This document shows positions 20,810-43,623 of a stretch of 64,000 nt of DNA, in pieces. The notes beneath the pieces are model-generated. The model was given only the letters and a program-made list of their open reading frames with translations. It was not told the origin of the DNA and searched no databases. Within the stretch, counting starts at the first letter, position 1; each line of letters begins with the position of its first letter. The stretch is from contig NZ_QICJ01000006.1 in NCBI RefSeq assembly GCF_003201105.1, forward strand, positions 62,001 through 126,000. Reading direction: 5' to 3'. Position numbers and translations under genes: made by a program. Source of the DNA: Dyella sp. AtDHG13. Its GTDB lineage: Bacteria; Pseudomonadota; Gammaproteobacteria; Xanthomonadales; Rhodanobacteraceae.

Positions 20810-22072
20810 TTACACGGTGCTGGCGAGCTTGAAGATCGGCAGATAGAGCGAAATCACCATGCCGCCGACGAGCACGCCTAGGATCACCATGATCAGCGGT
20901 TCGAGCAGCGTGGAGAGCGTATCGACCGCGTTGTTCACCTCTTCTTCGTAGAACTCGGCGACCTTGAAGAGCATGTGATCGAGTGCACCCGATTCTTCGC
21001 CGATGGCCGTCATCTGCACGACCATGTTCGGGAACAGCCCAGTCTGCCGCATCGACAGCTGCAGCTGATGGCCAACCGCCACGTCCTCGCGCATCTGCTT
21101 GACGGCATCGCCGTAGACCACACTGCCCGTCGCGCCGGCTACCGCGTCCATGGCCTCCACCAGGGGCACGCCCGCGCGGAATGTCACGCCCAAGGTGCGC
21201 GCGAAGCGGGCAATGGCGGACTGCCGGAGGATGCTGCCGATAACCGGCACTTTCAGCATCACGCGATCAAGGAAGTGCGCAAACTTGACGGAGCGCTTCT
21301 TGGCCATCACCAGCGCGACGATGCTGCCGATGATGCCGCCAACGACCAGCCACCAATAGGACTTCATGAACTCGGAGGCGCTGATGACGATCTGCGTGGG
21401 TGCGGGAAGCTCGGCACCGGCGTCCTTGAAGGTCTGCGCGAACACCGGCACCACGAAGAGCAGCATGATCATGCTGACCAGCAGCGCCACGGCCAACACC
21501 ATGACAGGATAGAACAGGGCCTTCTTGATCTTGGCCTTGATGGCTTCCGTGCGTTCCTTGTAGGTGGCCACGGTGTCCAGTACCGAGTCGAGCACACCGG
21601 AAGCCTCGCCCGCATGCACCAGGTTTCGATACAGCTCGTCGAACTGCACGGGATACTTGCCCAGCGCCTCGTGGAGCGCGGAACCGCCCTCGATGGTCTG
21701 CTTGACGTCCGTCAGCATGTTCTTGAAGCGGATGTTCTTCTGGCCGTCCGCGATGATGTCGAAGGCCTGCACCATCGGCACGCCGGAGGCCATCATGGTG
21801 GCGATCTGGCGGCTGAAGATGGCGACATCGCGGGGCTTGACCGTGCTGCCGGAGGCGCCGAACAGCGGCTTGCCGCGTTCCTTCACTGTCTGCGGGTTCA
21901 TGCCCTGACGGCGCAATTCGGCCTTGACGAGCGAGGCGTTCTTGGCCGCCATGTCGCCCTTCATGCGCTTGCCGCGCTTGTCCAGCGCCACCCAGTCGTA
22001 GGTGGTCAGCTTGCTGATCTCCGCGCGCTGGGCGCCAATCGACTTGACGTTTTTAGCGGTGGCCGCAGCCAT
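20810..22072 (-). CDS. pilC: Type IV pilus inner-membrane platform protein
   Basis: A 420-residue GspF/PilC-family protein with two repeated T2SSF domains (about 85-210 and 290-410) and three membrane helices. The family motifs GVPMVQAFDIIADGQ and GALHEALGKYPVQFDELYRNLVHAGE are in the first domain; GVPLVEAMDAVAGATG and PNMVVQMTAIGEESGALD are in the second. It couples the PilB ATPase in the cytoplasm to pilus assembly. It lies between pilB (159 bases upstream) and pilD; no strong sigma-54 site was found in the gap before it. Confidence 0.95.
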   Translation of the reverse strand: MAAATAKNVKSIGAQRAEISKLTTYDWVALDKRGKRMKGDMAAKNASLVKAELRRQGMNPQTVKERGKPLFGASGSTVKPRDVAIFSRQIATMMASGVPMVQAFDIIADGQKNIRFKNMLTDVKQTIEGGSALHEALGKYPVQFDELYRNLVHAGEASGVLDSVLDTVATYKERTEAIKAKIKKALFYPVMVLAVALLVSMIMLLFVVPVFAQTFKDAGAELPAPTQIVISASEFMKSYWWLVVGGIIGSIVALVMAKKRSVKFAHFLDRVMLKVPVIGSILRQSAIARFARTLGVTFRAGVPLVEAMDAVAGATGSVVYGDAVKQMREDVAVGHQLQLSMRQTGLFPNMVVQMTAIGEESGALDHMLFKVAEFYEEEVNNAVDTLSTLLEPLIMVILGVLVGGMVISLYLPIFKLASTV

Positions 22073-22230: not shown

Positions 22231-23952
22231 TCAGTCCTTCGTGACGCGGTCGATTTCGGCCAGGCTGGTCACGCCCTTCTTGACCTTGAGCAGTGCCGAG
22301 TCACGCAGGTCGTTCACGCCGGCTTTCCTGGCCGCTTCGCCGATCTGCAGCGTGTTGCCGCCCTGCAGGATGATCTTCTGGATCTCCTCCAGCATGGGCA
22401 TCACCTGGTAGATACCCACGCGGCCCTTGTAGCCTTCGTTGCAGTTGTCGCAACCCACGGCTTCGTAGATGGTAAGGCCGGCGTCGATATCCGCCTGGGT
22501 GAAGCCCGCGTCCAGCAAGGCCTGTGGCGGCAGGTTCATCGGCCGCTTACAGTCGTGCAGGCGGCGGGCCAGTCGTTGGGCAATCACCAGGGTGACCGAC
22601 GAGGTGATGTTGTAGGGCGCGATGCCCATGTTCATCAGGCGGGAGATGGTCTGCGGAGCGTCATTCGTGTGCAGGGTGGAGAGCACCATGTGGCCCGTCT
22701 GCGCCGCCTTGATGGCGATCTCGGCGGTTTCCAGGTCGCGGATTTCGCCCACCATGATCACGTCCGGGTCCTGACGCAGGAACGAGCGCAGGGCGGCGGC
22801 GAAGGTCATGCCGCGCTTGGTGTTCTGCTGAACCTGGTTGATGCCCTCGACGCGGATTTCCACCGGGTCTTCCACCGTGGAGATATTGCGCTCGGCGGTG
22901 TTGAGGATATTGAGCGCCGTGTACAGCGACACCGTCTTGCCCGAGCCGGTGGGGCCGGTGACCAGCACCATGCCGTAGGGCTTGTGGATGGCGCTGAGGT
23001 AAAGCTGTTTCTGCTCGTCCTCGTAGCCCAGGGCATCGATGCCCAGCTTGGCCGCCGAGCCGTCGAGGATACGCAGCACGATCTTCTCGCCGAACAGCGT
23101 GGGCAGGGTGCTCACGCGGAAGTCGACCGAGCGGCTCTTGGACAGGTTGAGCTTGATGCGGCCGTCCTGCGGCACGCGGCGCTCGGCGATGTCCAGGCCG
23201 GACATCACCTTGATGCGCGAGGCAATGCGCGAGGCGAGCTTCATCGGCGGGCTGGCAACGGCGCGCAGCATGCCGTCCATGCGCAGGCGCACGCGGTACT
23301 GCGTCTCGAACGGCTCGAAATGGATGTCGGACGCGCCGCGCTTGATGGCGTCGACCAGGATCTTGTTGACGAACTTGACGACAGGTGCATCGTCATTCGC
23401 GGTAGCATCGATACCGGTGGATTCGGCCTCGTCGTCGCCGCCCTCCAGCGATAGCTCGTCGAACTCCCCGCCGCCCATGTCAGGCACCGCATTGCCCAGG
23501 GCGGTAAGCGCGGTTTCGATCACCTTCAGCAGCTGGCCCCGCTCGACCAGGATCGGCTCCACCATGCAGTTGGAGTGGAACTTGATTTCATCCAGTGCAT
23601 GCGACTGCATGGGGTCGGCGATGCCGACGAACAGGCGCTTGCCGCGCTTGAACAGCGGCAATGCATGATGCTTGTTGATCAGCGCCTCGCTGATCAGGCT
23701 CACCGGCATGTTGGCGGTCGCCAGTGCGCTGACATCCATCATCGGCATGCCGAACTCGTCGGATGCGATGCGGGTGAGCCGCGCGCTTTCGACCAGGTTG
23801 TTATCCAGCAGCCAGGCCGTGAGCGAGGTCTTGCTCTGGGTCGATTCGGCGACTGCCCGGCGCACGTCGGCCTCGGGCAGCACATCTTCCGATACCAGCC
23901 TGCGCGCGAGGCCGGTGAGGCCCGCGAGCGACGGTTGCATTAGCGTTGACAT
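22231..23952 (-). CDS. pilB: Type IV pilus assembly ATPase
   Basis: A 573-residue secretion ATPase that powers pilus extension. The N-terminal MshEN/T2SSE domain (about 1-150) is followed by an acidic linker and the ATPase core. Walker A is GPTGSGKT at 333-340; the Asp box, the Walker B in QDPDVIMVGEIRDLETAE and the His box with MVLSTLHTNDAPQT follow. A cysteine motif GCDNCNEGYKGRVGIYQ near the C-terminus is the metal-binding element of PilB. A sigma-54 promoter candidate lies at 24091-24106. The neighbouring pilin and accessory genes are 12 kb away, across the glycan island. Confidence 0.95.
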   Translation of the reverse strand: MSTLMQPSLAGLTGLARRLVSEDVLPEADVRRAVAESTQSKTSLTAWLLDNNLVESARLTRIASDEFGMPMMDVSALATANMPVSLISEALINKHHALPLFKRGKRLFVGIADPMQSHALDEIKFHSNCMVEPILVERGQLLKVIETALTALGNAVPDMGGGEFDELSLEGGDDEAESTGIDATANDDAPVVKFVNKILVDAIKRGASDIHFEPFETQYRVRLRMDGMLRAVASPPMKLASRIASRIKVMSGLDIAERRVPQDGRIKLNLSKSRSVDFRVSTLPTLFGEKIVLRILDGSAAKLGIDALGYEDEQKQLYLSAIHKPYGMVLVTGPTGSGKTVSLYTALNILNTAERNISTVEDPVEIRVEGINQVQQNTKRGMTFAAALRSFLRQDPDVIMVGEIRDLETAEIAIKAAQTGHMVLSTLHTNDAPQTISRLMNMGIAPYNITSSVTLVIAQRLARRLHDCKRPMNLPPQALLDAGFTQADIDAGLTIYEAVGCDNCNEGYKGRVGIYQVMPMLEEIQKIILQGGNTLQIGEAARKAGVNDLRDSALLKVKKGVTSLAEIDRVTKD

Positions 23953-24179: not shown

Positions 24180-24626
24180 GTGACGCAGCCTGACACTTCC
24201 ACGCCCTTTCTGGTCTTTGGCGCGCCTCGTATCGAAGAGGATGAGATCGCCGAGGTCGAGGCCTGCCTGCGCTCGGGCTGGCTGGGCACCGGGCCGCGCG
24301 TGGCCCAGTTCGAGCAGGATTTCGCGCGCTGGCGCGGCGTGCAGGCCTCACAGGTGGTGGCGGTCAATTCCTGCACCGCGGCCCTGCACGTAGGCATGGC
24401 CGGATCCTTCCTGGCCATGAATACCCATCGCATCGGTAAGGGCGTCCACTACCTGTCGGTGCCCGAGCATCCCTATTACCAGCAGCGCTTCGGCTGGCGG
24501 CCCGACCAGTGGCCGGAAGCCATGCGCCTGGGGCGACAGACCGTGAGCTTGCCGCTGTCTCCGGCCATGTCCGATGGTGACGTGGAGCGGGTCATCGAGG
24601 CGGTTCGCTCTGTCCTTTTGGCCTGA
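24180..24626 (+). pseudogene. DegT/DnrJ/EryC1 sugar aminotransferase with a large in-frame internal deletion
   Basis: The 148-residue product joins the first about 75 residues of a PLP-dependent sugar aminotransferase (GAPRIEEDEIAEVEACLRSG, then VVAVNSCTAALHVGM) directly to its last about 70 (THRIGKGVHYLSVPEHPYY, then LGRQTVSLPLSP). The middle of the roughly 370-residue family, including the PLP-binding lysine, is missing, so it cannot be an active transaminase. The reading frame is kept across the join. It starts with GTG and is the first plus-strand gene of the glycan island, so the ancestral gene probably made an amino sugar for that locus. Confidence 0.85.
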
Positions 24627-24839: not shown

Positions 24840-25694
24840 TTGAATCGCCTAAGCATCATCCTGCCCGCCAAAAACGAAGGAGCGGCGCTTAAGGATTTGT
24901 TGCCACGCCTGCGCCAGGCTCAACCCGCGGCAGAGATCATCGTGGTGGATGACGGTTCGACCGACGACACGCGGGACATCTGCACGGCAGCCGGCGTGAG
25001 CTGCCTGTCCTCGCCCTACTCCATGGGCAATGGCGCAGCGATCAAGCGCGGCGCCCGCGCCGCCAGCGGCGACGTGCTGGTATTCATGGATGGCGACGGC
25101 CAGCATGACCCGATGGACATCGCTCGGCTCCTGGAAAAGCTGGATCAGGGCTACGACATGGTCGTCGGCGCCCGCGACTGGAGCAGCCAGGCGGGCGTGG
25201 GTCGCGGAGTGGCCAATACCATCTACAACTGGCTGGCCACACGCATGACCGGGCACGTTGTGGCGGATCTGACGTCGGGTTATCGCGCAGTGCACGCCGA
25301 CAAATTCCGCGAATTCCTGCACCTGCTGCCCAACGGATTTTCCTATCCGACCACGAGCACCATGGCGTTTTTCCGAAGCGCGTACCCCGTGGCTTACGTG
25401 CCAATCACGGCGTCGCAGCGTGTGGGTAAGAGCCACATCAAGCCGCTGAAGGATGGTGTGCGTTTCTTGCTGATCATTTTCAAGATCGCGACGCTGTACT
25501 CGCCGTTGAAGCTGTTCGCGCCTGCAAGCGCCTTGTTCTTCCTGCTGGGTTGCGTCAACTACGCACGAACGTTCCTCGTGGATGGACGGCTGACGAACAT
25601 GAGCACGCTGATGTGGAGCGCGGCGGTGATCGTCTTCCTGATCGGTTTGGTTTCCGAGCAGATCACGTCGTTGATCTACCGGCGCGATGCGTGA
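24840..25694 (+). CDS. GT2 glycosyltransferase, dolichyl-phosphate-mannose-synthase-like
   Basis: A 284-residue inverting glycosyltransferase. The GT-A domain (1-200) has the N-terminal SIILPAKNEG, VVDDGSTDDT and the metal-binding region FMDGDGQHDPMDI. QRVGKSHIKPLKDGVRFLL and two C-terminal membrane helices (about 220-240, 255-275) are typical of GtrB/DPM1-type enzymes. These load one sugar from a nucleotide donor onto polyprenyl phosphate, making the donor used by GT-C enzymes. TTG start at 24840 with GGGGA about 8 bases upstream. It could feed the two GT-C proteins encoded at 32493-36525. Confidence 0.88.
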   Translation: MNRLSIILPAKNEGAALKDLLPRLRQAQPAAEIIVVDDGSTDDTRDICTAAGVSCLSSPYSMGNGAAIKRGARAASGDVLVFMDGDGQHDPMDIARLLEKLDQGYDMVVGARDWSSQAGVGRGVANTIYNWLATRMTGHVVADLTSGYRAVHADKFREFLHLLPNGFSYPTTSTMAFFRSAYPVAYVPITASQRVGKSHIKPLKDGVRFLLIIFKIATLYSPLKLFAPASALFFLLGCVNYARTFLVDGRLTNMSTLMWSAAVIVFLIGLVSEQITSLIYRRDA

Positions 25695-28772: not shown

Positions 28773-29879
28773 ATGGCCACGCGCGCTGATCGCATCCTGC
28801 TGGTCTTGCCGAGCCTCGAACGAGGGGGCGGCGAGCGTGTACTTCTGCAATTAGCCGGGGCATTTCAGGCTGCTGGGCGTGAAGTGCATGTAGCGGCCTT
28901 GTTAGGCGGTGGTCCGCTGCGCTCCGCCGTTCCAGGTTCGGTAAAGTTGCATGAGCTGGTCGATGTTAGCGAGGCGCCTAAGAGCCTTGCGCTGGCGCGG
29001 AAAGCTTTCCCGAGGTTGGCGTCCCTCATCCGTGTGATCAAGCCGCAAGCCGTGTTGAGCACGATGACAGGCACAAATCTGTTGGTTGCGTTGACGCTCA
29101 TGCGAGCGCGAGTTCGTGCACGGCTTATATTGCGAGAAGCCTCCAGTCTCGCCAACACCAGAAGTTCAATGAAGCGACAAGCGATGCGCTGGCTCTACAG
29201 GCGTGCTTACGGGGTGGTCGCCGTGTCGGCCGGGGTGGCGCAAGACCTACGAGGGATTGGCCTTGCAAGCGAACGCATCCACATCATACGCAATCCAGTT
29301 GATGTTGAGCGGCTGCGCCACCTTGCAAAGACTGGTTTGGTGCCAGCGGTCCAGCGTCGAACGCCATATATTGTTTCGCTAGGGCGCTTGACCGAGGCGA
29401 AAGATTTTCCAACCTTGTTGCGAGCTTATGCACTCAGTGCGTTGATGGAGAGTCACTGCCTAGTCATCGTCGGGGCCGGTGAACAGCGTTTGAGCCTGGA
29501 AGCCCTGATTGATGATTTGGGGCTAGGGGATCGCGTCCTGCTCACGGGTGCTCTCGATAATCCTTATCGTGTGCTTGCAGAAGCTAAGCTGCACGTTCTC
29601 TCTTCTCGCTGGGAGGGATGCCCGAATGTTCTACTGGAGGCGCTGGCATTGGGGGTTCCAGTGGTATGCACGGATTGCGCACATGGTCCACGTGAAATAC
29701 TTGATGGTGGACGTTACGGCAGGCTTGTGCCAGTGGGGGACGCGGGCGCGCTAGCAGGCGCGATGGATGCGGAATTGGAGCGGCCGTCTTCCCCGGGTGA
29801 TGCGGTGATCGCCGCCCACAGTTCACCGATGATCGCCTCGCGCTACCTCGATTTACTTGATGGGAAACTGGAGGATTGA
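28773..29879 (+). CDS. GT4-family glycosyltransferase
   Basis: A 368-residue GT-B enzyme. It begins ILLVLPSLERGGGERVLLQL, the motif of GT4 enzymes such as AmsD/PglA types. The C-terminal half has YIVSLGRLTEAKDFPTLLRA and HVLSSRWEGCPNVLLEALAL. It follows asnB by 4 bases. Codon use shifts here towards more A and T than in the housekeeping genes. The acceptor is unknown; a second or third sugar of the same lipid-linked glycan is the likely product. Confidence 0.88.
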   Translation: MATRADRILLVLPSLERGGGERVLLQLAGAFQAAGREVHVAALLGGGPLRSAVPGSVKLHELVDVSEAPKSLALARKAFPRLASLIRVIKPQAVLSTMTGTNLLVALTLMRARVRARLILREASSLANTRSSMKRQAMRWLYRRAYGVVAVSAGVAQDLRGIGLASERIHIIRNPVDVERLRHLAKTGLVPAVQRRTPYIVSLGRLTEAKDFPTLLRAYALSALMESHCLVIVGAGEQRLSLEALIDDLGLGDRVLLTGALDNPYRVLAEAKLHVLSSRWEGCPNVLLEALALGVPVVCTDCAHGPREILDGGRYGRLVPVGDAGALAGAMDAELERPSSPGDAVIAAHSSPMIASRYLDLLDGKLED

Positions 29880-29883
29880 AGTC

Positions 29884-30777
29884 GTGAATCGGCCGTGGCG
29901 AGTAGTGCGAAACGTCGCGTACTTTGCGCTTGTGGTCGTTGCGATAGTGTTGGTCGTCCACTGGTGGCCAGAGCTTGCAGCGATCTGGCGCAAACAGGCC
30001 CTTACTTTTGTGGGCGCCATCGTGATCATGATGTGCGGCACGCTGGTGCAGACACGCAACTTTTTGGTGTTTCTTAACGTGGGGCATTCGGTGCGATTTT
30101 GGCGTTTCGCGCAGGTCTGGGCCTTGAGCTCACTTGCGAATTACGTGGCCCCATTGCAGCCTGGCATTGCAGTACGAGTCGCTTGGCTGGCGCGTTGTGG
30201 CGTGAACGTGTCGGAAGGGCTGCTGGCGACTTGGCGCCAGCTGGTTGCCAGCGTCTGGATTTCGTTGGTCGGATTGGCTGTCGGACTATTACTAACAGGC
30301 GACTCGCGCGGCCGCTGGCCGGCCCTATTTCTTGGGGTGGCTTGGGTGGCGATATATTTGCTGCGTAGCTTATGTCTACGGTTATTGGATCGATGGACAC
30401 GTCCCGCATGGTTGGCGCACCGAAAGCAATTATTGCAGCGTGCCGCGACTGGCATTGTATCGAGTGGCTTGGCGGGGGTCGTCACGCAATATGTGTTAGG
30501 TACACTGGTACTGTATTGGGTCTATGGCCGATTCGGTGCCGACATTGGTATAGGGCAAGCGCTTGTGCTGACCTGCCTAGTGTACGTCTCGTCAATGATC
30601 TCCGTGTTACCGGGAAACCTTGGAGTGGTGGAGGCGATCTACATGTTCGGTGGACATGGATTCGGCCTTAGTGTGGCCGAGACGGGCGCGCTTGCACTGC
30701 TTTTACGGGTCTCAAACGTCGCCAGTAGCGTGCTGCTCGCTCTTTGCGGAGTAGTCAAGCCAAGTCGGGAAGGCTAG
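29884..30777 (+). CDS. Flippase-like membrane protein (UPF0104, lysylphosphatidylglycerol synthase TM family)
   Basis: A 297-residue integral membrane protein with about eight hydrophobic segments. The features of the AglD/MprF-type family are visible: NYVAPLQPGIAVRVAWLAR near the first third and SMISVLPGNLGVVEAIYM near the end. Members are thought to move lipid-linked substrates or to accompany glycosyltransferases. The GTG at 29884 was chosen because GGAGG lies 9 bases upstream; the ATG at 29860 overlaps the previous gene and lacks a site. It ends the plus-strand operon and converges with the methyltransferase gene 7 bases away. Confidence 0.82.
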   Translation: MNRPWRVVRNVAYFALVVVAIVLVVHWWPELAAIWRKQALTFVGAIVIMMCGTLVQTRNFLVFLNVGHSVRFWRFAQVWALSSLANYVAPLQPGIAVRVAWLARCGVNVSEGLLATWRQLVASVWISLVGLAVGLLLTGDSRGRWPALFLGVAWVAIYLLRSLCLRLLDRWTRPAWLAHRKQLLQRAATGIVSSGLAGVVTQYVLGTLVLYWVYGRFGADIGIGQALVLTCLVYVSSMISVLPGNLGVVEAIYMFGGHGFGLSVAETGALALLLRVSNVASSVLLALCGVVKPSREG

Positions 30778-32492: not shown

Positions 32493-34517
32493 CTATCGCA
32501 GTCCGTCGGCTGACGTCGGCGACGCAGGTTTGCTGAGAAGCGTTTCCAAAGATTGAATGGTGGTGTCCAACCTTCCGCCGAAATTCATGGTTTGCAGTTG
32601 CGCCAGGGCCTTGCGTGCTCTTTCGTTCTCTCTACTAGCTGCCAGCATGCGCACCAGTGTGACGCGGTAGCTTGGCTCATTGGGCGAAGAGTTCACCGCG
32701 CCTTCGATCATGCGAAGCCCAAGCGCATGATTGTCTAGCACGTTCCAAGCGTAGTTGCCGTACGTGGCCTGCAGCCGGGCGCTGGGATTGGGATGAGACA
32801 GTGCTGCCTCGAACGCCTGTGTCATCCGGTCACAGGGAAGAGGGCAGGAACCGTCCCGAGCACAGTCGACTAGCGCGGCGAGCGAGCTTTCGTCCTGCAC
32901 GCCCGATTTTCGGGCGTGGAGTTTTGCGATCATACTATCCCACCAATCTGCCTTGAGAGGCAGACCCATACGTGAATTCATGAAGATCAGCGCCTGCTGG
33001 GGCAGGATTGAGGATTCGGGGAGATTCGCCGCTTTTTCCAGCGGGGCGTAAGCCAATCTCGTATAAGGCGATGCTGGGTCGTAATGAGAATAGATAATGT
33101 AAGTGCGCCCTAACTCGTACTGAGCACGTGGTGAGCCAGGCGCTCGCTCTGCAAGTTCTTGCGCAAGGCGTAAGGGGTCACCCCAGACATGGGCGGTGAG
33201 AGCCGTGAGAGCTGCCCACCAGAGTATCAAAATGGCCAATATCCCGCGGCGTATCCACAATCGGGCTATCGAGTAGCTGTCCGCCTTGGCAAGCCAGGGC
33301 ACAACGGTCAGCAACACACCGAAACTGGCGAAATAGTTGCGATGTTCGTACACCAGTTCCAATTGCAGGATCGTGCCGGTTAATAGTTGGCATCCGAGGA
33401 ATAAGGCAATACCAAGAGCTGCTATTGATTCCCGCTTCCGCAACCAGAAAACCATCACGGCCAGCGTGGCCAAAGAGAGCATGCTGGTCAGCGTGGTCCA
33501 AGGCGAAAGCGGTCCGGTCGAAATGTGAAAATCATCATGGTAGAACGAGAGAGCATGCGATGTGGGCAGCAACGTCCATACGAGGTAGTCGCAAACGACC
33601 CGTGCCTCGCTGAGCAGTCGCTGGCCGAGCGTGAAATCGCGCGTAGCCCAGTTGGCTGGATTCAGAACTTGTGGAATTTGCCAAGCTAGCCCAGCGATCA
33701 TGGGGATAATCAGCACCAGCAAAAACAGGCCGATGATGTATCGACTTCGCGTCACATGGCCATCAGTACATGCTTGGCGCTGGCGCCGAAAATCGAACAT
33801 GATCCATTCAATAAGGAAAGCATAAAGCGGCAACATTACCGCCGTTTCCTTGGCGAGCAGACCAATAGTTGTGAGGATGGTCAGGCTTGCAGCACAAAGC
33901 CAGAAACCTCCCCAACCGGAATATCTCTCATTGCCCGGAATGGTACGGGCCTGCATCCATTGACGCCCTGCCACGTAACCTGTCAGCCCCAGAAGTACAA
34001 ACAGGTTGGCTATGCTCTCCTCGCGCTGGACCACGTACAGCACGCCGGTGAGGTTGATGGGCAGCAGCATCCACCCGGTGGCGATCAAAGCTGCAACGAT
34101 GGAAATAGAAGAAGCTTCCAACCCATTGCTCGGATGGTTGCTGGGAGCGGATGAAGCCGTTCCTGCTATGGCGAGCAGGCGGCGAGTGAGCACGAATACC
34201 AGAATGCCATTCAACAAGTGAATGATGAGGTTGAATAGCTTCCAGCCGAACGGATTTAAGCCTCCCGCCAGATAGTTCGCAGCAAAGCTCAGCGAAGCCA
34301 GCGGCCGCTTGAAATCGCTGGCCGGCGAGGACAGCGCGGCACGTACCAATGCCGGTACGCTTAATTCGCGCGGTTGCACTCCAGGGTTGTCCACGATGTT
34401 GGGGTTATCGTCGAAGAGCCAGTAGCCCTGTAGGCCAGGCCAATAGACCGCTGTGACGATAAGCAGCGAGATGGGCATGAGCCATCGCGCAGCAGGTATT
34501 TTCCAGGCGGAATTCAT
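32493..34517 (-). CDS. TMTC-like GT-C glycosyltransferase with TPR tail (paralogue 1)
   Basis: A 674-residue membrane protein with about ten hydrophobic segments followed by a soluble C-terminal region (about 430-670) of TPR-like repeats. The first loop has the acidic pair in GYWLFDDNPNI, typical of GT-C active sites. Other features shared with its neighbour are FKRPLASLSFAANY, LPINLTGVLYVVQREE, LLAKETAVMLPLYA, RDFTLGQRLLSE and YEHRNYF. The layout, and the VVQR and KE motifs, recall eukaryotic TMTC O-mannosyltransferases. Proposed role: transfer of a sugar from a polyprenyl-phosphate donor to a periplasmic protein. The nearby pilins are the obvious candidates, but that is inference. Confidence 0.78.
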   Translation of the reverse strand: MNSAWKIPAARWLMPISLLIVTAVYWPGLQGYWLFDDNPNIVDNPGVQPRELSVPALVRAALSSPASDFKRPLASLSFAANYLAGGLNPFGWKLFNLIIHLLNGILVFVLTRRLLAIAGTASSAPSNHPSNGLEASSISIVAALIATGWMLLPINLTGVLYVVQREESIANLFVLLGLTGYVAGRQWMQARTIPGNERYSGWGGFWLCAASLTILTTIGLLAKETAVMLPLYAFLIEWIMFDFRRQRQACTDGHVTRSRYIIGLFLLVLIIPMIAGLAWQIPQVLNPANWATRDFTLGQRLLSEARVVCDYLVWTLLPTSHALSFYHDDFHISTGPLSPWTTLTSMLSLATLAVMVFWLRKRESIAALGIALFLGCQLLTGTILQLELVYEHRNYFASFGVLLTVVPWLAKADSYSIARLWIRRGILAILILWWAALTALTAHVWGDPLRLAQELAERAPGSPRAQYELGRTYIIYSHYDPASPYTRLAYAPLEKAANLPESSILPQQALIFMNSRMGLPLKADWWDSMIAKLHARKSGVQDESSLAALVDCARDGSCPLPCDRMTQAFEAALSHPNPSARLQATYGNYAWNVLDNHALGLRMIEGAVNSSPNEPSYRVTLVRMLAASRENERARKALAQLQTMNFGGRLDTTIQSLETLLSKPASPTSADGLR

Positions 34518-34575
34518 TTCATAGACGTTGAGAGAGTTGGGCGATTATTGTGCCGTATGGGGCGCCATGGTTAGG

Positions 34576-36525
34576 CTACTCAGTCTCCCCTCTGGCATTA
34601 CGTTCATCCTTGCGCATCTGGCTGATTGCGGCGATATCCGCTGCGTTTATGCTGCGATCGTCCACAAGTAGGCGCCGCAGCAGCGGCAAACGGTGGTAAT
34701 CGGTATTGCTCAATACATCGACGGCTTGGTCATACAGGTGAGCGCTAGCCAGATATTGGGCCTCCAGACGCGGGATGTTGGCGTCTGGATCATTCTGGTA
34801 AGTGGCCTCAAGTTCGTGTATGGCCATGTTAAGGTCGCCTTGGCTGACGGCCCAGAAGTGCCTCTGATAGTGAAGATAGCCGGTCGCGAAACGGTTATTA
34901 ACGTATAGTGGATTGGAAAGCAATGCGCTGGTGATGCTCAACCAAGCGTCGGATGTAAGTGCTGGGCACGAGCCTTGGGTTGCGGCCGCGCGTAGCGTTT
35001 CTATGCTTTCTAACCCGCTCTGGTCGAAACGCGCGGTGCGAAGGAGCACGATCAGTTTGTCCAGATCGTTCTGTGTAAGGTCGCCTTGAGCGCATTGAAC
35101 CAAAACGCGATCTTCTGCAAGCGAAGGGGTGTTCGGGTGTAGTTGAATAGCCTTATCCAACACTTGCCGGGTAGCGTCCAGCTGCCTGTGCTTGTACAAC
35201 CGCTCAGCGAGATACGTCTGCGCGCGCACTGAGTCTGGTTGGGTGTTGGCCCAGACCAGGGCAAGCCGGTCTTCGGATGCATACGCGCCTGCGCTCAGCG
35301 CCGTGGTAATACAGCACGCCATTAGCCAGATGCAGGAAGCCATATACAACATGCGTTGCTGTCGCCCTTGAGGCTGACGCGCAACGATCAGTGCCAGAGC
35401 CATCACGGGGCCGATCAGTGGCATGTAGTTGCGGTGCTCGAAATACAACTCCAGCATCACGGTGGAGCTTTCGAGCAACTGACCGCCGAGATACCAGAGT
35501 ACAGCCAGCGCAAAGAGTGGCCACCGTCGGTAGCTCGCCAAGGCAGCGATCAGCGCTCCGATCGTTGTCAGCAGTGCAGGTAGCGTGGACCAGGGTGAAA
35601 ACAGGCTACGTGATACCGGGTAACCGTCGTGATATAGGCCATATAGCCCGAATCTCGGTAGAAAAATCTTGCCAAGATAGTCGAGCAGAATGCGCGGCTC
35701 TGTCAGCAGACGCTGGCCTATCGTGAAATCTCGCGTGCCAGTGTGCTCCCACTCGCTAAAGAGTGTCCAAAGCAAGTAGCTTAATACAAACAGCACGGCA
35801 GGCCAGATCAACAGGCGCCGCAGCCAAGACAGTGTGGAGGGCAAACGTTGCACGTCTGTACGCAACAACGTAGCGTCAAGCACTAGCGCATAGATTGGTA
35901 GCAGGATCCCGTTTTCCTTGCTCAAGAAAGCCAGTCCCATGCATACACCTAAACCCAGTACCATCCATGCGCCGCGTTGCCATATAGGCTTTTGGCCCGC
36001 CAATAAGCCTCGCGTGTAGGCCAGAAGCCCAAGCAGCATGAACATGGCCATGAGCAAAGTCATGCGTTGCACCACCAGCACCACGCCCGAAAGCTGGATA
36101 GGATTGAGCAACCATGCTGCAGCAGCTATGCATGCAGTCAGGCAGGCGCGGCCCTCCAGGGAATCTGCCGTGAGCCGGCCAGACAGCCAATGATGCGAAA
36201 CACGTCGGACCAAGGCGAAGACCAGAGCACCATTCAGCAAGTGAATGCTCACGTTGATCAGGCGGAACGGGAACGGATGACTTGGCCACGAGGATTTCTG
36301 CAGCAGAAAACTCAGCATGGCCACCGGCCTGCCAGGGAAGCTGCGTGGCTGCGAAAGATAGATGCCTAAGTCGCGCCAGCTTGATACGTGATCGATACTG
36401 TCTAGCGCTGCTAGATTGGGAAAGTCGTCAAACAGAAAAGGGCCGTGCATGGCCGGCCAGTACAAAAGTGCGCAGACGAGTAAGGCGGCCGTTAGCCCGA
36501 GCAGGGCAAATATTCGGGCAGACAT
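34576..36525 (-). CDS. TMTC-like GT-C glycosyltransferase with TPR tail (paralogue 2)
   Basis: A 649-residue paralogue of the preceding entry, with the same membrane part and C-terminal TPR-like region. Matching motifs are GPFLFDDFPNLAAL, PGRPVAMLSFLL, NPIQLSGVVLVVQRMT, LSKENGILLPIYA, RDFTIGQRLLTEPR and YFEHRNYMP. The ATG at 36525 was chosen because AGGA lies 7 bases upstream; the frame is open to 36561. It begins 59 bases after the stop of the second pilin gene on the same strand, so pilin and transferase probably share the sigma-54 promoter at 37068-37083. Sequence divergence from paralogue 1 is large, which suggests different acceptors or sugars. Confidence 0.78.
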   Translation of the reverse strand: MSARIFALLGLTAALLVCALLYWPAMHGPFLFDDFPNLAALDSIDHVSSWRDLGIYLSQPRSFPGRPVAMLSFLLQKSSWPSHPFPFRLINVSIHLLNGALVFALVRRVSHHWLSGRLTADSLEGRACLTACIAAAAWLLNPIQLSGVVLVVQRMTLLMAMFMLLGLLAYTRGLLAGQKPIWQRGAWMVLGLGVCMGLAFLSKENGILLPIYALVLDATLLRTDVQRLPSTLSWLRRLLIWPAVLFVLSYLLWTLFSEWEHTGTRDFTIGQRLLTEPRILLDYLGKIFLPRFGLYGLYHDGYPVSRSLFSPWSTLPALLTTIGALIAALASYRRWPLFALAVLWYLGGQLLESSTVMLELYFEHRNYMPLIGPVMALALIVARQPQGRQQRMLYMASCIWLMACCITTALSAGAYASEDRLALVWANTQPDSVRAQTYLAERLYKHRQLDATRQVLDKAIQLHPNTPSLAEDRVLVQCAQGDLTQNDLDKLIVLLRTARFDQSGLESIETLRAAATQGSCPALTSDAWLSITSALLSNPLYVNNRFATGYLHYQRHFWAVSQGDLNMAIHELEATYQNDPDANIPRLEAQYLASAHLYDQAVDVLSNTDYHRLPLLRRLLVDDRSINAADIAAISQMRKDERNARGETE

Positions 36526-36584
36526 CAATAATCCTGGAAGATCGAAAGATGGCGTAGCCATCCAGACGCTATATCGGGCGCAGG

Positions 36585-37019
36585 CTACTGGCAGGTTTGG
36601 GGGAGGTAAACCGGATCTGCATCACTACTGCATTGCCAGCTTATGGCGCCGCCCGTGCTTCCCCCCATCGTGAGTATGACCTGTTTGCCCTGTAGCCTGG
36701 GTGCGACGGTATGGTTTCGCATAAAGGCTGTAATCACGCAACCCGCTCCGCTGTTGGAGATCTTGACGTTATCCACGTATTTGCCGTTATAGCTGGCGGC
36801 TGCGGCGAAACCGTTTGCTCCAAGCGTCGGGCAGCTCCCGGCTTGGGCGTAGTACGTGGAGACGTCGGTTTTGAGGCCATCGGTAAGAGTAAATGCCTCG
36901 CTCAATTGTGCCTTGGCCACTGAATTCTGATAGATCGTGATAGCTAATGCACTGAGAATTGCAATGATCGCCACCACGATCATTACCTCGATGAGCGTAA
37001 AGCCCTTTATGCGTTTCAT
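36585..37019 (-). CDS. Type IV pilin, divergent second copy
   Basis: A 144-residue prepilin. The leader MKRIKG is cut before Phe7; Glu5 of the mature protein is in [15 protein letters not shown]. The hydrophobic helix departs from its neighbour after residue 25 (LSALAITIYQNS, lacking the usual proline in this stretch). Four cysteines (SCPTLG, GCVITAF, SWQCSS and the final TCQ) can form the two disulfides of the D-region. It shares the CPTLG block and the YLPQxCQ end with the other pilin but little between. It lies directly upstream of a GT-C gene. Confidence 0.92.
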   Translation of the reverse strand: MKRIKGFTLIEVMIVVAIIAILSALAITIYQNSVAKAQLSEAFTLTDGLKTDVSTYYAQAGSCPTLGANGFAAAASYNGKYVDNVKISNSGAGCVITAFMRNHTVAPRLQGKQVILTMGGSTGGAISWQCSSDADPVYLPQTCQ

Positions 37020-37067
37020 TGCCTTCCCCCTTTAGGCAATCCAATCCTGGGTCGCATCGCTTGGCCA

Positions 37068-37083
37068 AGCAAACGGTACGCCA
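37068..37083 (-). promoter_or_regulatory. Sigma-54 promoter candidate for the second pilin gene
   Basis: The minus strand reads TGGCGTACCGTTTGCT, with GG and GC 10 bases apart and only one or two departures from TGGCAC-N5-TTGCT. It lies 50 bases before the pilin ATG and just downstream of a terminator, so this pilin has its own promoter. Confidence 0.72.
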
Positions 37084-37098
37084 ATTCTTTGCTGAGCT

Positions 37099-37130
37099 GA
37101 AAAAAAAGCCCCTCCGTAGAGGGGCTTTTT
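37099..37130 (-). terminator. Rho-independent terminator after the first pilin gene
   Basis: The stem AGCCCCTC-CGTA-GAGGGGCT is flanked by A and T runs on both sides. It lies 21 bases after the stop of the upstream pilin gene and isolates its transcript from the second pilin gene. Confidence 0.92.
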
Positions 37131-37150
37131 GAACGCGTACTAGACGGGCC

Positions 37151-37609
37151 TTACTGGCAAGCCTGTGGCAGGTACTTCACGTCGACGTTCGAAGTGCAAG
37201 CCCAGGTGAAGTTTCCACCAACGTTCGCACCCTTGAAGACCGCATTCTTGCCACCCTGCAGCGGGGTCGAAATCGAGCCCGCAGTGTTCTTGAAATTAAT
37301 CGTGATGTCGCAGGTGGGATTGGTGGCGGCGGTGCCGGCAGCCACCGCGGCAGAGGCCACGTACTTGCCCGCGTAGCTGACGCCAGTCGGGAAACCAGGC
37401 GTAGTGCCAAGCGTCGGGCACTGTCCAGCCTGAGTGTAGTACTCGGCAATCGCGGTCTTCATGCCGTCAGCGATGGTCTGCGACTCGGAAAACTGCGACT
37501 TGGTGATGTAGTTCTGGTACTGCGGGATGGCGATAGCCGCCAGGATCGCGATGATCGCAACCACGATCATCAGTTCGATCAGGGTAAAGCCCTTCTGCAC
37601 GTTCTTCAT
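37151..37609 (-). CDS. pilA: Major type IV pilin
   Basis: A 152-residue prepilin with leader MKNVQKG, cleaved before Phe8, and the canonical helix [20 protein letters not shown] with Glu5 of the mature protein. Four cysteines ([25 protein letters not shown]) define the D-region. It is the more typical of the two pilins and has a strong terminator directly after it and a sigma-54 promoter candidate upstream, as expected for an abundant major pilin. The C-terminus is glutamine, not serine, so PilO/TfpO-type C-terminal glycosylation is not expected; any glycan would be on internal Ser or Thr. Confidence 0.94.
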
Positions 37610-37747: not shown

Positions 37748-38172
37748 CGTTTGCCATGTGGTGGTTACCCGCAGCGATGCGGGTGTGAGGATTGTGCATA
37801 GGGTCACGGGCCCCGACAACCGGATACGGCCTACGTTCTTGCAGGATTGTCGAGCATGTCTCGGTGCGCCTGGGCCGTCTGCTCTTGCAGGGCAATAAGT
37901 GACGCTGTGCGTCAGCAGATTTGTGAGACGCCCGTCTCGAAGTGCTCTGGTTGGTCACTCTTTCGGGCTCGGGCAGGCGGGGCGGGGAAGGTGTTTTCCC
38001 GGGATTTCGGCGGGAAGCACGTACTCGCGGCATCGCCAAATACCTCGGCGGCATGAGACTGGAACCGGCTCAAAACGCCCGTCTGGGCTCCGCCCTTGCC
38101 GCACCGTGCCTTGCGCCAGGCCCCTCGCGCCACTTACCGTCACCCCTTTCGCAACACCCAGGAAACCCACGC
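37748..38172. other. Intergenic gap between pilA and the S9 peptidase gene
   Basis: 425 bases between divergent genes. The part next to the sigma-54 site would be the place for PilR-type activator sites, but no repeated element was recognised. Frames that run through the gap towards the peptidase gene lack any family character. Nothing else is supported. Confidence 0.4.
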
Positions 38173-40257
38173 ATGAAACCCTTGTTTGTCGCGCTGGCGC
38201 TGGCGCTCGCGCTGGCCGGTACCTCCGCCGTGGCGGCCGAGGTCGAAAATCACGGTACCCATCCCTTTGGCATCCGCGATCTGGTGATGATGGATCGCGT
38301 CGGCGACCCGCAGCTGTCGCCGGATGGCCGCCAGGCGCTTTATACCGTGCGCGCCACCGATTACGCCGCGAACAAGGGCATCACGTCGATTTACGTGCTC
38401 GATCTCGCCAAAGGCGGTGCGCCGGTGAAGCTGGTGGAGAAGGCCTCCTCGCCGCGTTGGGCGCCGGATGGTTCGGCCGTTTACTACGTGGCCGAGAAGG
38501 ATGGCGTGTCGCAGCTGTGGCGTCGCCCGCTCGGGGCGTCGGCCGTCGCAGTGCAGGTGACGCATGCGCCGATCGATGTGGATGGCTACAAGCTCTCGCC
38601 GGATGGCAAGAAGGCGTTGCTCACCTTGGGCGTGTTCACCGATTGCGCGGATCTGGCCTGCACCAAGGAGCGCCTGGACGGCCGCGAGAAGGACAAGGCC
38701 TCGGGCACGGTGTACGACAAGCTGTTCGTGCGTCACTGGGATACCTGGGCGGACGGCCGCCGTGCGCAGCTTTTCATTACCGACCTGGATAACCCGTCCG
38801 AACAGCCAGTGCTGCTAACCCGCGGCATCGATGGTGACGTGCCGAGCAAGCCGTTCGGTGACGATGGCGAATTCAGCTTCTCGCCCGATGGCAAGACGGT
38901 GTATTTCGACGTGCGCATCGCGGGCAAGAGCGAGCCGTGGTCGACCAATTTCGATGTCTACAGCGTGCCGGCGGATGGTTCGGCGGCGCCGCGCAACCTG
39001 ACCGCCGACAACCCGGCGTGGGATGCCTCCCCGGTGCCGTCGCCGGATGGCAAGACGCTGTACTACCTCGCCATGAAAGTGCCGGTGTCCGAGGCCGATC
39101 GCTTCCGCATCATGGCGCTGGACCTGGCCAGCGGCGAGAAGCGTGAAGTGGCCCCGAACTGGGACCGCTCCGCTGGTGGCATGCAGGTGTCGGCGGACGG
39201 CAAGACGCTCTACGTCACGGCCGACGACAACGGCCAGCGCCCGCTGTTCGCCGTGGACGCTGCCAGCGGCATGGTCACCACGCTCGTCACGAATGGCGAA
39301 GTGGGCGGCTATTCGCTGGGCAAGTCCTCGCTGCTCGTGCAGCGCGATGACCTGAAGCGTTCGGCCGACCTGTACACGGCCGACCTGCAGGGCAAGGGGC
39401 TCAAGCAGGTCACGCACTACAACGCCGAGCGCCTCAAGAAGACGCAGATGGGCGAGCCGGAGTTCTTCACCTTCAAGGGCTGGAACAACGAGACGGTGCA
39501 GGGCTACGTGGTGAAGCCGGTGGGCTACAAGTCCGGCAAGAAGTATCCGGTGGCCTTCATCATTCACGGCGGTCCGCAGGGCGCGATGAACAACGCGTGG
39601 AGCTACCGCTGGAATCCGCAGACCTACGCGGGCCAGGGTTTCGCCGTGGTCACCATCAACTTCCACGGTTCCACCGGTTACGGCCAGGCGTTCACCGACT
39701 CGATCTCGGGCGACTGGGGCGGCAAGCCGCTGGAAGACCTCAAGGCCGGTTGGGCCGCGGCGCTGTCCAAGTACAGCTTCCTCGATGGCGATCGCGCCTG
39801 TGCACTGGGCGCCAGCTACGGCGGCTACATGATCTATTGGATCGCCGGCGTGTGGAACCAGCCATGGAAGTGCCTGGTCGACCATGACGGCGTGTTCGAC
39901 GCACGCGCCATGTACTACGACACCGAAGAACTCTGGTTCGAGGAGCGCGAGAACGGCGGCACGCAATACGAGCACCCGGAAAACTACGAGAAGTTCAACC
40001 CGATCAACCACGTCAAGGATTGGCGCGTGCCGATGCTCGTGATCCATTCGGCCAAGGACTTCCGCATTCCGGATACCCAGGGCCTGGGCGCGTTCACCGC
40101 GCTGCAGCGCCGCGGTATTCCCAGCAAGCTGCTGCACTTCCCGGATGAGAACCATTGGGTGCTCAAGCCGCAGAACAGCGTGCAGTGGCATGAGACGGTG
40201 AATGCGTGGCTGAAGGAGTGGACGGCGAAGGGTGGGGCTGCTTCGGGCTCCAAATAA
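38173..40257 (+). CDS. Secreted S9-family prolyl oligopeptidase-like peptidase
   Basis: A 694-residue serine peptidase. A signal peptide (1-22, ending V-A-A) is followed by a beta-propeller built of WD40-like/TolB-type repeats with recurrent SPDGK motifs (about 40-420). The alpha/beta-hydrolase domain has the nucleophile Ser548 in LGASYGGYMIYW, Asp629 in HSAKDFRIPD and His661 in PDENHWVL. It resembles the acylaminoacyl-peptidase/dipeptidyl-peptidase group common in Xanthomonadales and would trim peptides in the periplasm. The start MKPLFV at 38173 is fixed by the signal peptide. A strong terminator follows. Confidence 0.92.
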   Translation: MKPLFVALALALALAGTSAVAAEVENHGTHPFGIRDLVMMDRVGDPQLSPDGRQALYTVRATDYAANKGITSIYVLDLAKGGAPVKLVEKASSPRWAPDGSAVYYVAEKDGVSQLWRRPLGASAVAVQVTHAPIDVDGYKLSPDGKKALLTLGVFTDCADLACTKERLDGREKDKASGTVYDKLFVRHWDTWADGRRAQLFITDLDNPSEQPVLLTRGIDGDVPSKPFGDDGEFSFSPDGKTVYFDVRIAGKSEPWSTNFDVYSVPADGSAAPRNLTADNPAWDASPVPSPDGKTLYYLAMKVPVSEADRFRIMALDLASGEKREVAPNWDRSAGGMQVSADGKTLYVTADDNGQRPLFAVDAASGMVTTLVTNGEVGGYSLGKSSLLVQRDDLKRSADLYTADLQGKGLKQVTHYNAERLKKTQMGEPEFFTFKGWNNETVQGYVVKPVGYKSGKKYPVAFIIHGGPQGAMNNAWSYRWNPQTYAGQGFAVVTINFHGSTGYGQAFTDSISGDWGGKPLEDLKAGWAAALSKYSFLDGDRACALGASYGGYMIYWIAGVWNQPWKCLVDHDGVFDARAMYYDTEELWFEERENGGTQYEHPENYEKFNPINHVKDWRVPMLVIHSAKDFRIPDTQGLGAFTALQRRGIPSKLLHFPDENHWVLKPQNSVQWHETVNAWLKEWTAKGGAASGSK

Positions 40258-41655: not shown

Positions 41656-43623
41656 ATGAAGTCGAATGACTATCGGCTGGGCTACCGTGGCGATATAGAG
41701 GGGTTGCGGGCGGTTGCGATACTGCTTGTCATCGCCGCTCACGCAGGTGTCCCTTGGCTCGCCGGCGGTTTCATTGGCGTGGACGTGTTTTTTGTCCTCT
41801 CCGGCTTTCTGATCACCGGCCTGCTACTACGCGAAATGGCAGACACCGGCCAGATTGATTTTGCGTGTTTCTATTTGCGACGACTTCGGCGCCTTATGCC
41901 GGCATTGATCCTAATGATCGTGCTGATATCGCTTAGTGCGTATCTACTCCTTGGTCCAGAGGAGCAGTTGCCGCAAGCCAACAAGGCGAGCTTGGCGGCT
42001 CTGTGGTTGAGCAATGTGTCCTTTGCTTTGACGCAAACGGACTACTTTGCGCCGAGTGCGGAGAACAGCCTTTTTCTGCATACATGGTCGCTGGGCGTAG
42101 AAGAGCAGTTCTATCTGGTGTGGCCAGCGCTGCTCCTTTGGTCGCTCGGTCGAGGACATCGTGAACTTCCGTTGCAACGGCTCAAAAGCATCATGTTGGG
42201 GATTTTTGCGATCAGTCTAGGGGTGTGCGTTCTCGCTACACCGCGTTCCCCACAGTTCGCTTTTTACATGATGCCTGTGCGCGCCTGGGAGTTTGCTGGC
42301 GGAGCGTTGATCTGGCTGTTCTCTGGGAAGATGCGTGCTGGTGAAGTAGCCAGGGAAAAAGGCGCCGTGTTCACGCGGTGGCTTGGCTGGACCGGAATGG
42401 TGATGATCATTGGCACGGCTGCGAGCTACGGCACACAGATGTCGTATCCGGGTTGGCATGCGGTGTTGCCGGTAGCAGGGACTATGGCCGTCATTGCAGC
42501 AGGGTGGGCCGATGATACGCATAGTGTGTCGCGCCTGCTGTCGTATCGGTGGATGCAGGCCGTCGGTCGCGTTTCTTATTCATGGTATTTGTGGCACTGG
42601 CCGGTCCTGGTGCTTGGGCACGCGCTGAATTGGAGCCATGATCCAAGTGGCCGTTTGGTTGCCGTGCTGTTGTCTCTGGGGCTTGCGATGGCGTCATACC
42701 GGTTTGTGGAGACGCCTATCCGCCAACAGGATTTCTGGCTTTCGCATCGACGTACCGCCATGTATGGGACGCTTGGTATAACGGTGGCGGTTTGTTTGGT
42801 GTCTATGCATTGGTTCAACGTTGCAGCCGCGTATAGCGAGAGCCCGATCATGCAGCGTTACAGCCATGCACGTTTCGATGCGCCTTCAATCTATTCCCGA
42901 GGTTGCGATGATTGGTATTACAGCGATCGGGTAATGTTGTGCAGTTATGGTCCCAGCGATGCCGCACATACACTTGTGCTGATGGGTGACAGTATCGCCG
43001 GGCAGTGGTTTTCTGCATTGTTACCATTGGCGACGAAGCCTGGTTGGCGACTAGTCGTCGCGACCAAGTCATCGTGCCCCATGGTCGATGAGCCTTATTT
43101 CTATGCGCGCATTGGCCGGGAATATACCGAGTGCGCAAGCTGGCGACATCAGGCGGTTGATCAGGTCGCATCGCTTCACCCGGATGTCGTTGTGCTCAGT
43201 ATGGGGTTGGGCGGCACACAATCGTTCTCTCAAACGCAGTGGATCGAAGGCACGGCACGCTCTTTGAGCGCATTGAGTGGACAGGCTGGTCGGGTCTATT
43301 TGTTGCGCACCACGCCTCACCTCGATTTCGACGGTCCAAGTTGCCTTGCCTCGCGGGCAGGTCGGCCCAAGTGGTTAGGCTCTGCAGCCGGTTGTGAATC
43401 GGTAGTCGACGACGCGCGCGAGCGACAGGTTTACCAATGGCTGCAGCAGGCTGCTGCGCGCTTCCCCAATGTCCAGATAGTAGACATGAATGGAATGATA
43501 TGTCCGGAGCTGCGTTGTAGCGCAGAGCGTAACGGCCAGGTCGTATTCCGCGATGCCCAGCATCTGACCGCCAGCTTTGCGACTTCATTGGGACCGGCGC
43601 TGTCTGCTCGACTTGGACTTTAG
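41656..43623 (+). CDS. OafA/YrhL-type acyltransferase with C-terminal SGNH domain
   Basis: A 655-residue membrane O-acetyltransferase. The AT3 membrane domain (about 8-390) has RGDIEGLRAVAILLVIAAHA with the conserved His, FFVLSGFLITGLLL and HTWSLGVEEQFYLVWP. The periplasmic SGNH domain has Ser446 in VLMGDSIAGQW and Asp633/His636 in DAQHLTASFA. Such proteins acetylate O-antigen, peptidoglycan or exopolysaccharide: the AT3 part moves acetyl groups across the membrane and the SGNH part transfers them. Codon use is more A/T-rich than the flanking genes, hinting at acquisition. It stands alone, between divergent corA and a convergent operon end. Confidence 0.92.
   Translation: MKSNDYRLGYRGDIEGLRAVAILLVIAAHAGVPWLAGGFIGVDVFFVLSGFLITGLLLREMADTGQIDFACFYLRRLRRLMPALILMIVLISLSAYLLLGPEEQLPQANKASLAALWLSNVSFALTQTDYFAPSAENSLFLHTWSLGVEEQFYLVWPALLLWSLGRGHRELPLQRLKSIMLGIFAISLGVCVLATPRSPQFAFYMMPVRAWEFAGGALIWLFSGKMRAGEVAREKGAVFTRWLGWTGMVMIIGTAASYGTQMSYPGWHAVLPVAGTMAVIAAGWADDTHSVSRLLSYRWMQAVGRVSYSWYLWHWPVLVLGHALNWSHDPSGRLVAVLLSLGLAMASYRFVETPIRQQDFWLSHRRTAMYGTLGITVAVCLVSMHWFNVAAAYSESPIMQRYSHARFDAPSIYSRGCDDWYYSDRVMLCSYGPSDAAHTLVLMGDSIAGQWFSALLPLATKPGWRLVVATKSSCPMVDEPYFYARIGREYTECASWRHQAVDQVASLHPDVVVLSMGLGGTQSFSQTQWIEGTARSLSALSGQAGRVYLLRTTPHLDFDGPSCLASRAGRPKWLGSAAGCESVVDDARERQVYQWLQQAAARFPNVQIVDMNGMICPELRCSAERNGQVVFRDAQHLTASFATSLGPALSARLGL

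Follow-up and report, generated by a model that had tools for sequence, protein, structure and literature searches.

A probable pilin O-glycosylation locus with two GT-C/TPR membrane proteins in Dyella sp. AtDHG13 and its relatives

The DNA analysed here, a stretch of 64,000 nucleotides from Dyella sp. AtDHG13 (contig NZ_QICJ01000006.1, positions 62,001 to 126,000; hereafter the window), carries on its minus strand, in transcription order, two pilin genes (pilin A and pilin B) and the genes of two large membrane proteins, the proximal GTC2 and the distal GTC1 (Table 1). Both pilins possess PF00114 and a prepilin N-terminus and belong to the type IVa pilins; the genome shows no further PF00114 match. 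Likewise, GTC1 and GTC2 are the only members of their family of GT-C (C-fold glycosyltransferase) proteins in this genome. GTC2 comprises 661 amino acids from the first ATG, or 649 from the ATG at 36522. The block is flanked by pilB/pilC and by an S9 peptidase gene (37942-40257), with sugar-related genes in between. An original prediction, made from the letters of the stretch, had described two paralogous membrane proteins behind two pilins, and this layout was recovered. We consider it likely, with a probability of about 0.8, that the locus encodes a pilin O-glycosylation route, in which a lipid-linked sugar would be transferred to pilin by a membrane protein combining GT-C and tetratricopeptide repeat (TPR) domains. 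The evidence is computed throughout: fold, topology, invariant active-site residues, linkage, co-inheritance of a donor synthase, and co-exchange.

Table 1. Features of the pilin/GT-C locus and its surroundings (window coordinates).
Feature	Position	Strand	Evidence
Type IVa major-type pilin, upstream copy (pilin A)	37151..37609	-	PF00114 5.8e-18, N_methyl 1.1e-10
Type IVa pilin, proximal copy (pilin B)	36585..37019	-	PF00114 7.9e-23
GTC2, proximal GT-C/TPR protein	34576..36561	-	AlphaFold2 model, fold match, invariant residues
GTC1, distal GT-C/TPR protein, 674 amino acids	32493..34517	-	homologous to GTC2 (E 3.9e-52), same residues at invariant positions
GT2 polyprenyl-phosphate-sugar synthase, probable donor supplier	24840..25694	+	PF00535, PDB relatives, co-inheritance, linkage
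PF03706 membrane protein, speculative candidate for a donor flippase	29857..30777	+	PF03706 1.3e-15
Terminator-like (intrinsic) hairpin with a run of 8 T behind it, located between pilins A and B; candidate attenuator	37109..37122	-	pattern match only
Sigma-54-type promoter-like site, 5' of pilin B	37068..37084	-	pattern match
pilB-type ATPase (context)	22231..23952	-	T2SSE 5.3e-150, MshEN
pilC-type protein (context)	20810..22072	-	T2SSF 1.2e-63

GTC1 and GTC2 are about 30% identical (32% within the matched part), and searches with the two proteins gave 1806 and 3178 homologues among about 8000 scored candidates each. The motifs named in the original prediction, an acidic pair (DD) in the first loop, VVQR, KE(N/T) and EHRNY, were present in both proteins. 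The residues D32, D33, R65, Q152, R153, K202, E203, R271, R277, Y282 and R364 were identical in 96/96 aligned homologues, 58 of which had been retrieved by patterns around VQRM and EHRNY and bias the alignment toward those two motifs. In 21 sequences chosen without a motif, the DD, RP, QR, KE and EHR residues were invariant or nearly so. An AlphaFold2 model of GTC2, the enzyme of the two that was modelled, had a predicted local distance difference test score of 94.5 and a predicted template modelling score of 0.93. It predicts a GT-C fold of the STT3/PMT/ArnT type together with a TPR domain. A multi-helix membrane domain and an outward loop with the acidic pair after the first transmembrane (TM) helix, as in GT-C enzymes, were found. 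Structural matches obtained with VIA-align include ArnT, and those of the C-terminal domain include PilF. The TPR-like tails of the original prediction remain below the Pfam cut-off in GTC1 and GTC2 themselves. They are clear in the family, where TPR_19 was matched at E ≤1 in 14/21 members (best 3.6e-7), and in the profile and the model.

Curated families gave little for the membrane domain. Neither GTC1 nor GTC2 matched a GT-C family in Pfam or NCBIfam, and a listing for 31 membrane-domain sequences (12 Pfam families, E ≤1) contained no named glycosyltransferase. Similarity to PF02366 relatives was weak (P 2.7e-4, probability 42%). Against the PDB, the membrane domain sequence had zero matches at E ≤10, and the matches of the full profile, among those listed (60/292), all lay in the TPR part. 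A WaaL/O-antigen-ligase-type domain was not matched in Pfam by the window proteins or the 31 membrane domains (E ≤1), in line with the earlier claim that the enzymes are distinct from PilO/TfpO. Homologues carry gene names such as 'hypothetical', 'tetratricopeptide repeat protein', 'ArnT family glycosyltransferase' and 'protein O-mannosyl-transferase'.

The closest layout is that of TMTC1-4, the animal protein O-mannosyltransferases, for which topology and the motifs DD, SHKSYRP, KET(Q)xxT, DW and ERxxY have been described (PMC7801869, cited here, like all PMC sources below, from excerpts of its text). As in those proteins, the predicted topology comprises 11 TM helices with a helix in the TM7-TM8 loop on the outer side, and the TPR tail lies on the same outer side as the GT-C domain. 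Judged by position, DD in the first loop, RP, KE(N/T), Asp299 (conserved in 93/96) and a conserved Arg before TM10 (Arg364, 96/96, within EHRNY) may correspond to the TMTC motifs. In contrast to TMTC, ERxxY appears as EHRNY, the presumed acceptor is pilin and not cadherin, and PF08409 (DUF1736) is unmatched. This model was absent from the matches of the window proteins and the 31 membrane domains (E ≤1), and it was not among the best 25 of 44 families for 21 members. A search of 185 class genomes also gave no PF08409, but the control gave none either and no conclusion is drawn from it. The TMTC-like type proposed originally is supported for the combined GT-C and TPR layout; together with the predicted topology, this likeness does not establish membership of the TMTC family.

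The genes are tightly linked to pilins across genomes. The window's family comprises 147 genomes in 26 genera; a GT-C match was obtained in 131 of them, a few of the matches being weak, and PF00114 in 144. A pilin lies upstream on the same strand in 110 of 121 genomes with a listed GT-C match. In 72 of these 121, a listed pilin was found within 10 kb, every one upstream on the same strand; a scan for prepilin frames at the other 49 loci added 38, about 1 kb or less from the GT-C gene. The remaining 11 genomes comprise 8 of one genus (g25) and 3 in which at most 0.5 kb separates the first GT-C frame from an upstream contig end. Elsewhere in the order, matches of at least 261 bits were obtained in 36 genomes of other families: 29 with a pilin within 250 bp upstream, 1 with a pilin at 3.6 kb, 3 with an adjacent pilin in another orientation and 3 with none (1 at a contig end). 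At the level of the class, a GT-C match was found in 109/369 genomes sampled, and 19 of the 29 best-scoring short loci had a pilin. Among 143 class genomes searched for it, PF00114 was present in 96; 42 of the 143 carry GT-C, 40 of them together with PF00114 (Fisher p 1.2e-6, the window's own genome being counted among the 96 and not among the 42) and 30 with PF00114 directly upstream. Loci of named genomes had a prepilin frame within 450 bp upstream in 64/80; the other 16 have either less than 2 kb (9) or at least 3 kb (7) of upstream sequence. As a control, a prepilin was found within 500 bp upstream of 115/194 GT-C frames at 145 loci, versus 13/1178 other frames. No pilin was seen at 30 loci of PF02366 (protein O-mannosyltransferase, PMT, type) GT-C genes in related genomes (0/30, short flanks) or at 4 loci with weak, generic GT-C/TPR matches (0/4).

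Loci L027, L031, L032, L034, L035 and L054 have, within a few kb of the pilins, a third GT-C/TPR frame that is more distantly related (49-69 bits). Two metagenome-assembled records titled Klebsiella pneumoniae (L202, L206) also carry the cassette; their label looks doubtful.

The window contains a candidate donor enzyme. The GT2 protein has ArnC, DPM synthase and a GtrB-type enzyme as its nearest PDB relatives and is probably a polyprenyl-phosphate-sugar synthase that would supply the donor. Its best NCBIfam models were AglJ, which makes a dolichyl-phosphate-hexose, PpgS and ArnC, all far below their cut-offs. A close relative (E ≤1e-50) occurs in 127/147 family genomes, as a single copy in all but one. 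It accompanies the GT-C match in 125/131 genomes and was found in 2/16 genomes without one (Fisher p 3e-13). In the 119 family genomes with both genes listed, they share a contig in 107 and lie within 25 kb in 106 (median 9.6 kb). The arrangement is closer at the named loci, where a GT2 gene follows within 3 kb downstream on the same strand in 57/80, mostly within about 130 bp, and upstream within 3 kb in none; 3 kb of sequence was available downstream in 61 loci and upstream in 63. This order is found in Polaromonas JS666, where pilin, GT-C and GT2 form a three-gene set (L228, 5417-8759), in Acinetobacter tianfuensis and in Marinobacter mobilis; in M. mobilis a TfpX/TfpZ-like gene separates GT-C and GT2. 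Identity to the window's GT2 had a median of 61% over 64 matches (range 27-72), whereas the GT-C proteins of those loci are 21-31% identical to the window's. Thus the donor enzyme is conserved and the transferase variable.

The two GT-C proteins behave differently toward the pilins. A midpoint-rooted tree of 170 GT-C sequences placed GTC1 and GTC2 in two clades that each span the class; they are therefore not a recent duplication. In 28 two-enzyme family loci, pilin distance followed that of the proximal enzyme (Mantel r 0.85, p 2e-4; unchanged at 0.85 with the distal enzyme accounted for) and hardly that of the distal enzyme (r 0.12, partial -0.14). The second pilin, present in 21 loci, gave the same picture, with r 0.91 for the proximal and 0.08 for the distal enzyme (distal partial -0.28). 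The loci fetched were mostly those whose pilin was not among the matches listed, with five others and the window added. The p values treat loci as exchangeable, and only about 13 exchanges underlie them: for 35 two-enzyme loci with 8 proximal types, 13 type changes were counted on the distal-enzyme tree (shuffled labels: mean 19.7, minimum 14). Pilins differed by 0.50 within a proximal type (93 pairs) and by 0.75 between types (285 pairs), and their alignments showed three visibly different groups. The two pilins and the proximal enzyme thus behave as one exchangeable cassette, while the distal enzyme mostly stays.

Several observations weigh against the proposed route or against this account of exchange. 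Within proximal type 4 (n = 10), pilin distance also correlated with the distal enzyme (0.52, versus 0.63 for the proximal one); within type 1 it followed neither clearly (0.32, -0.12); and over all 91 loci of all groups, the correlation of pilin and proximal enzyme was 0.40. The distal-enzyme tree may differ from the species tree, and physical linkage alone can make neighbours co-vary. Linkage could contribute, yet the distal gene, which comes next in the row, does not track the pilins. The joint absence of enzyme and synthase could reflect the loss of one block. By eye, no acceptor sequon common to the three pilin groups was found. The window's PF03706 gene was considered as a conserved flippase and was not supported as such, a close relative occurring in 1/84 neighbourhood loci. 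Finally, GT-C genes without nearby pilins, named at the outset as the refuting case, do occur: genus g25 (8/121 genomes; loci L038-L043, L045, L046) retains them, mostly as a tandem pair, without adjoining pilins, 4 of these genomes having at least 6 kb of upstream sequence. Synthase genes lie near the GT-C genes in 4 g25 genomes, and at L042 the pair is near a GT2 gene and pilB. Elsewhere, L117 and L118 have no adjacent pilin, L088, L098 and L112 have one in another orientation, and the seven named loci with at least 3 kb upstream lack an adjacent pilin (two have one 1.5 and 3.9 kb off). Linkage is otherwise wide.

Other explanations of the locus were weighed against these data. The GT-C enzymes could modify lipopolysaccharide or exopolysaccharide, as ArnT and Gtr do, in a polysaccharide cluster inserted between pilB and pilA; ArnT is indeed among the structural matches, and GT4 enzymes, an asparagine-synthase-like gene, methyltransferases and an acyltransferase gene (41656-43623) lie in the region. 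We regard this as unlikely, since the window's other sugar-related neighbours that were compared recur in 1 to 16 of 84 loci and the synthase in 35, the GT-C gene elsewhere stands directly behind a pilin with the donor synthase directly behind it, pilins and proximal enzyme co-vary, and the PMT-type GT-Cs of related genomes had no pilin in their short flanks. That the proteins are instead non-enzymatic helpers of pilin assembly, of the TfpX/TfpY/TfpZ sort, appears very improbable. Such genes take the same position, and TPR proteins such as PilF, matched by the C-terminal domain, act in pilus assembly. A helper of this kind would not account for the GT-C fold, the DD, K-E and R residues identical in 96/96, or the lipid-sugar synthase behind the gene in 57/80 named loci; TfpX/TfpZ is a separate gene within some of these cassettes, and GTC1 and GTC2 gave no match to NF041437 (TfpX/TfpY/TfpZ).

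Two further alternatives concern the acceptor, and to each we give a small chance. The major pilin could be a mere neighbour and the acceptor another pilus component (minor pilin, PilQ, PilY1) or several periplasmic proteins. PglL-type enzymes elsewhere have many targets, and the g25 genomes keep the enzymes without adjoining pilins, but general PglL enzymes are not widely in tight linkage (excerpts of PMC12645811), whereas here the enzyme co-varies with adjoining major-type pilins. It is similarly doubtful that each enzyme modifies one of the two pilins, the matched pairing proposed in the original prediction. Two of each gene were found in 21/50 fetched family loci, the window included. Copy numbers disagree in 13 of the 43 fetched loci with at least one of each (2 enzymes and 1 pilin in 7, 1 enzyme and 2-3 pilins in 6), and with the two class-wide clades and both pilins following the proximal enzyme, the pairing was not borne out.

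Pilin glycosylation by GT-C/TPR enzymes, the reading we prefer, can be placed among described systems. TfpW, the Pseudomonas pilin arabinosyltransferase, which adds D-arabinofuranose, likewise belongs to the GT-C enzymes and has its gene in a pilin cassette (PMC11841053, PMC5836110, PMC12369383). The comparison is with its published description; as a difference, the donor synthase linked to the present genes resembles ArnC, DPM synthase and AglJ. From layout and tight pilin linkage, a predicted pilin glycosyltransferase comparable in role to TfpW, as first proposed, is the best reading. TfpO, TfpM and PglS are also often encoded near their pilin, but TfpO/PilO, TfpM, PglL and PglS have WaaL-like or O-antigen-ligase-related domains and transfer glycans en bloc (PMC12645811). 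TfpO and TfpM use a C-terminal Ser/Thr acceptor, whereas the window pilins end in Gln; Ser ends 8/147 proximal pilins, and Thr is not among the eight commonest last residues. Ser/Thr content was similar in proximal (0.228) and other pilins (0.218) and uninformative. GtrA/GtrB/Gtr and the GT136 pentofuranose systems resemble the locus in pairing a polyprenyl-phosphate-sugar synthase with a GT-C enzyme and include a flippase; their acceptor is O antigen (PMC11127046), whereas here the GT-C protein has a TPR domain and is pilin-linked. The ArnC-ArnT modification of lipid A offers another parallel, with GT2 nearest to ArnC in the PDB and a GT-C protein resembling ArnT, but the present genes are linked to pilins, and a link to lipid A genes was not seen, none having been searched for.

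A route can be proposed on this basis. GT2 would place a sugar on polyprenyl phosphate at the cytoplasmic side, as its family suggests, and a flippase would turn the sugar-lipid over. The proximal enzyme, with its active site predicted in the periplasm, would then transfer the sugar to a Ser/Thr of pilin not yet assembled and still anchored in the inner membrane, probably binding the pilin through its periplasmic TPR domain. Most changes of cassette leave the distal enzyme in place; its target is therefore probably something that the cassettes share. At about even odds, this may be the first sugar, the simplest case, or another conserved acceptor.

The remaining neighbours and signals were surveyed as well. 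Relatives of the window's neighbours at the 84 loci were, apart from GT2, the first GT4 enzyme (16, none at 150 bits or more), the second GT4 (6), the asparagine-synthase-like gene (6) and the two methyltransferases (2 and 1). Under looser clustering, a group whose representative is PF03706-like (1e-7, slightly under the cut-off) occurred in 23/84 loci; these clusters are single-linkage and may merge families. TfpX/TfpZ-like accessory genes stand beside the GT-C/TPR gene in 15/84 loci by clustering and 14 by BLAST, for example at L084 and L177:7713-8417; NF041437 was the best model, below its cut-off (197.8 and 78.6 of 200 bits). Thus an assembly helper and a presumed glycosyltransferase can co-occur in the same cassettes. 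At 24180-24626 (+) lies a remnant of a DegT/ArnB-PseC-type aminotransferase whose middle is missing: its residues 9-95 align with 8-87, and its residues 80-146 with 321-387, of a 389-amino-acid relative in L099. Genes of the DegT cluster were found in 25/84 loci. Pilin-accessory cassettes have been described as having a terminator behind the pilin (PMC11841053); the pattern of hairpin and T-run used here gave 9 sites in the region versus 5.1 expected (standard deviation 2.4). The sigma-54-type pattern matched once in the window, with 0.28 expected and at least one match in 23/100 shuffles. Its core occurs upstream of 26/132 proximal pilins and 3/50 other pilins, compared with 166/9962 background 250-mers.

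GT-C-type pilin glycosylation is already known from TfpW (PMC5836110, PMC11841053), three-component routes from work on O antigen (PMC11127046) and GT-C/TPR proteins from TMTC. The literature mentions TMTC-like GT-C/TPR proteins of prokaryotes as still incompletely characterised (PMC7801869). We found no report of GT-C/TPR genes in pilin cassettes in the open-licence literature, which was the scope of the search (subscription papers and preprints lay outside it); within it, the combination of GT-C/TPR protein, pilin and donor synthase, with its spread and gene set, was absent as well. Gene order, co-inheritance and co-exchange indicate a substrate for TMTC-like proteins, which is therefore directly testable in a small gene set of pilin, GT-C/TPR protein and sugar-lipid synthase. 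More tentatively, the bacterial TMTC-like proteins may include a large family dedicated to pilins. Its members would build glycans stepwise in the periplasm from polyprenyl-phosphate donors, the TPR domain of the first enzyme reading the pilin fold and a second, seldom exchanged GT-C/TPR enzyme extending or completing the glycan. Whole cassettes would be swapped between lineages, perhaps in evasion of pilus-binding phages; in Pseudomonas, pilin glycans help phage evasion (PMC11841053). Transferases with a modular substrate-reading domain would also be of interest for glycoengineering. If the proposed route is correct, a widespread form of pilin glycosylation, distinct from the known O-oligosaccharyltransferases and carried by more than a quarter of the sampled class genomes, would have escaped notice for want of a Pfam or NCBIfam family for its membrane domain and of informative gene names.

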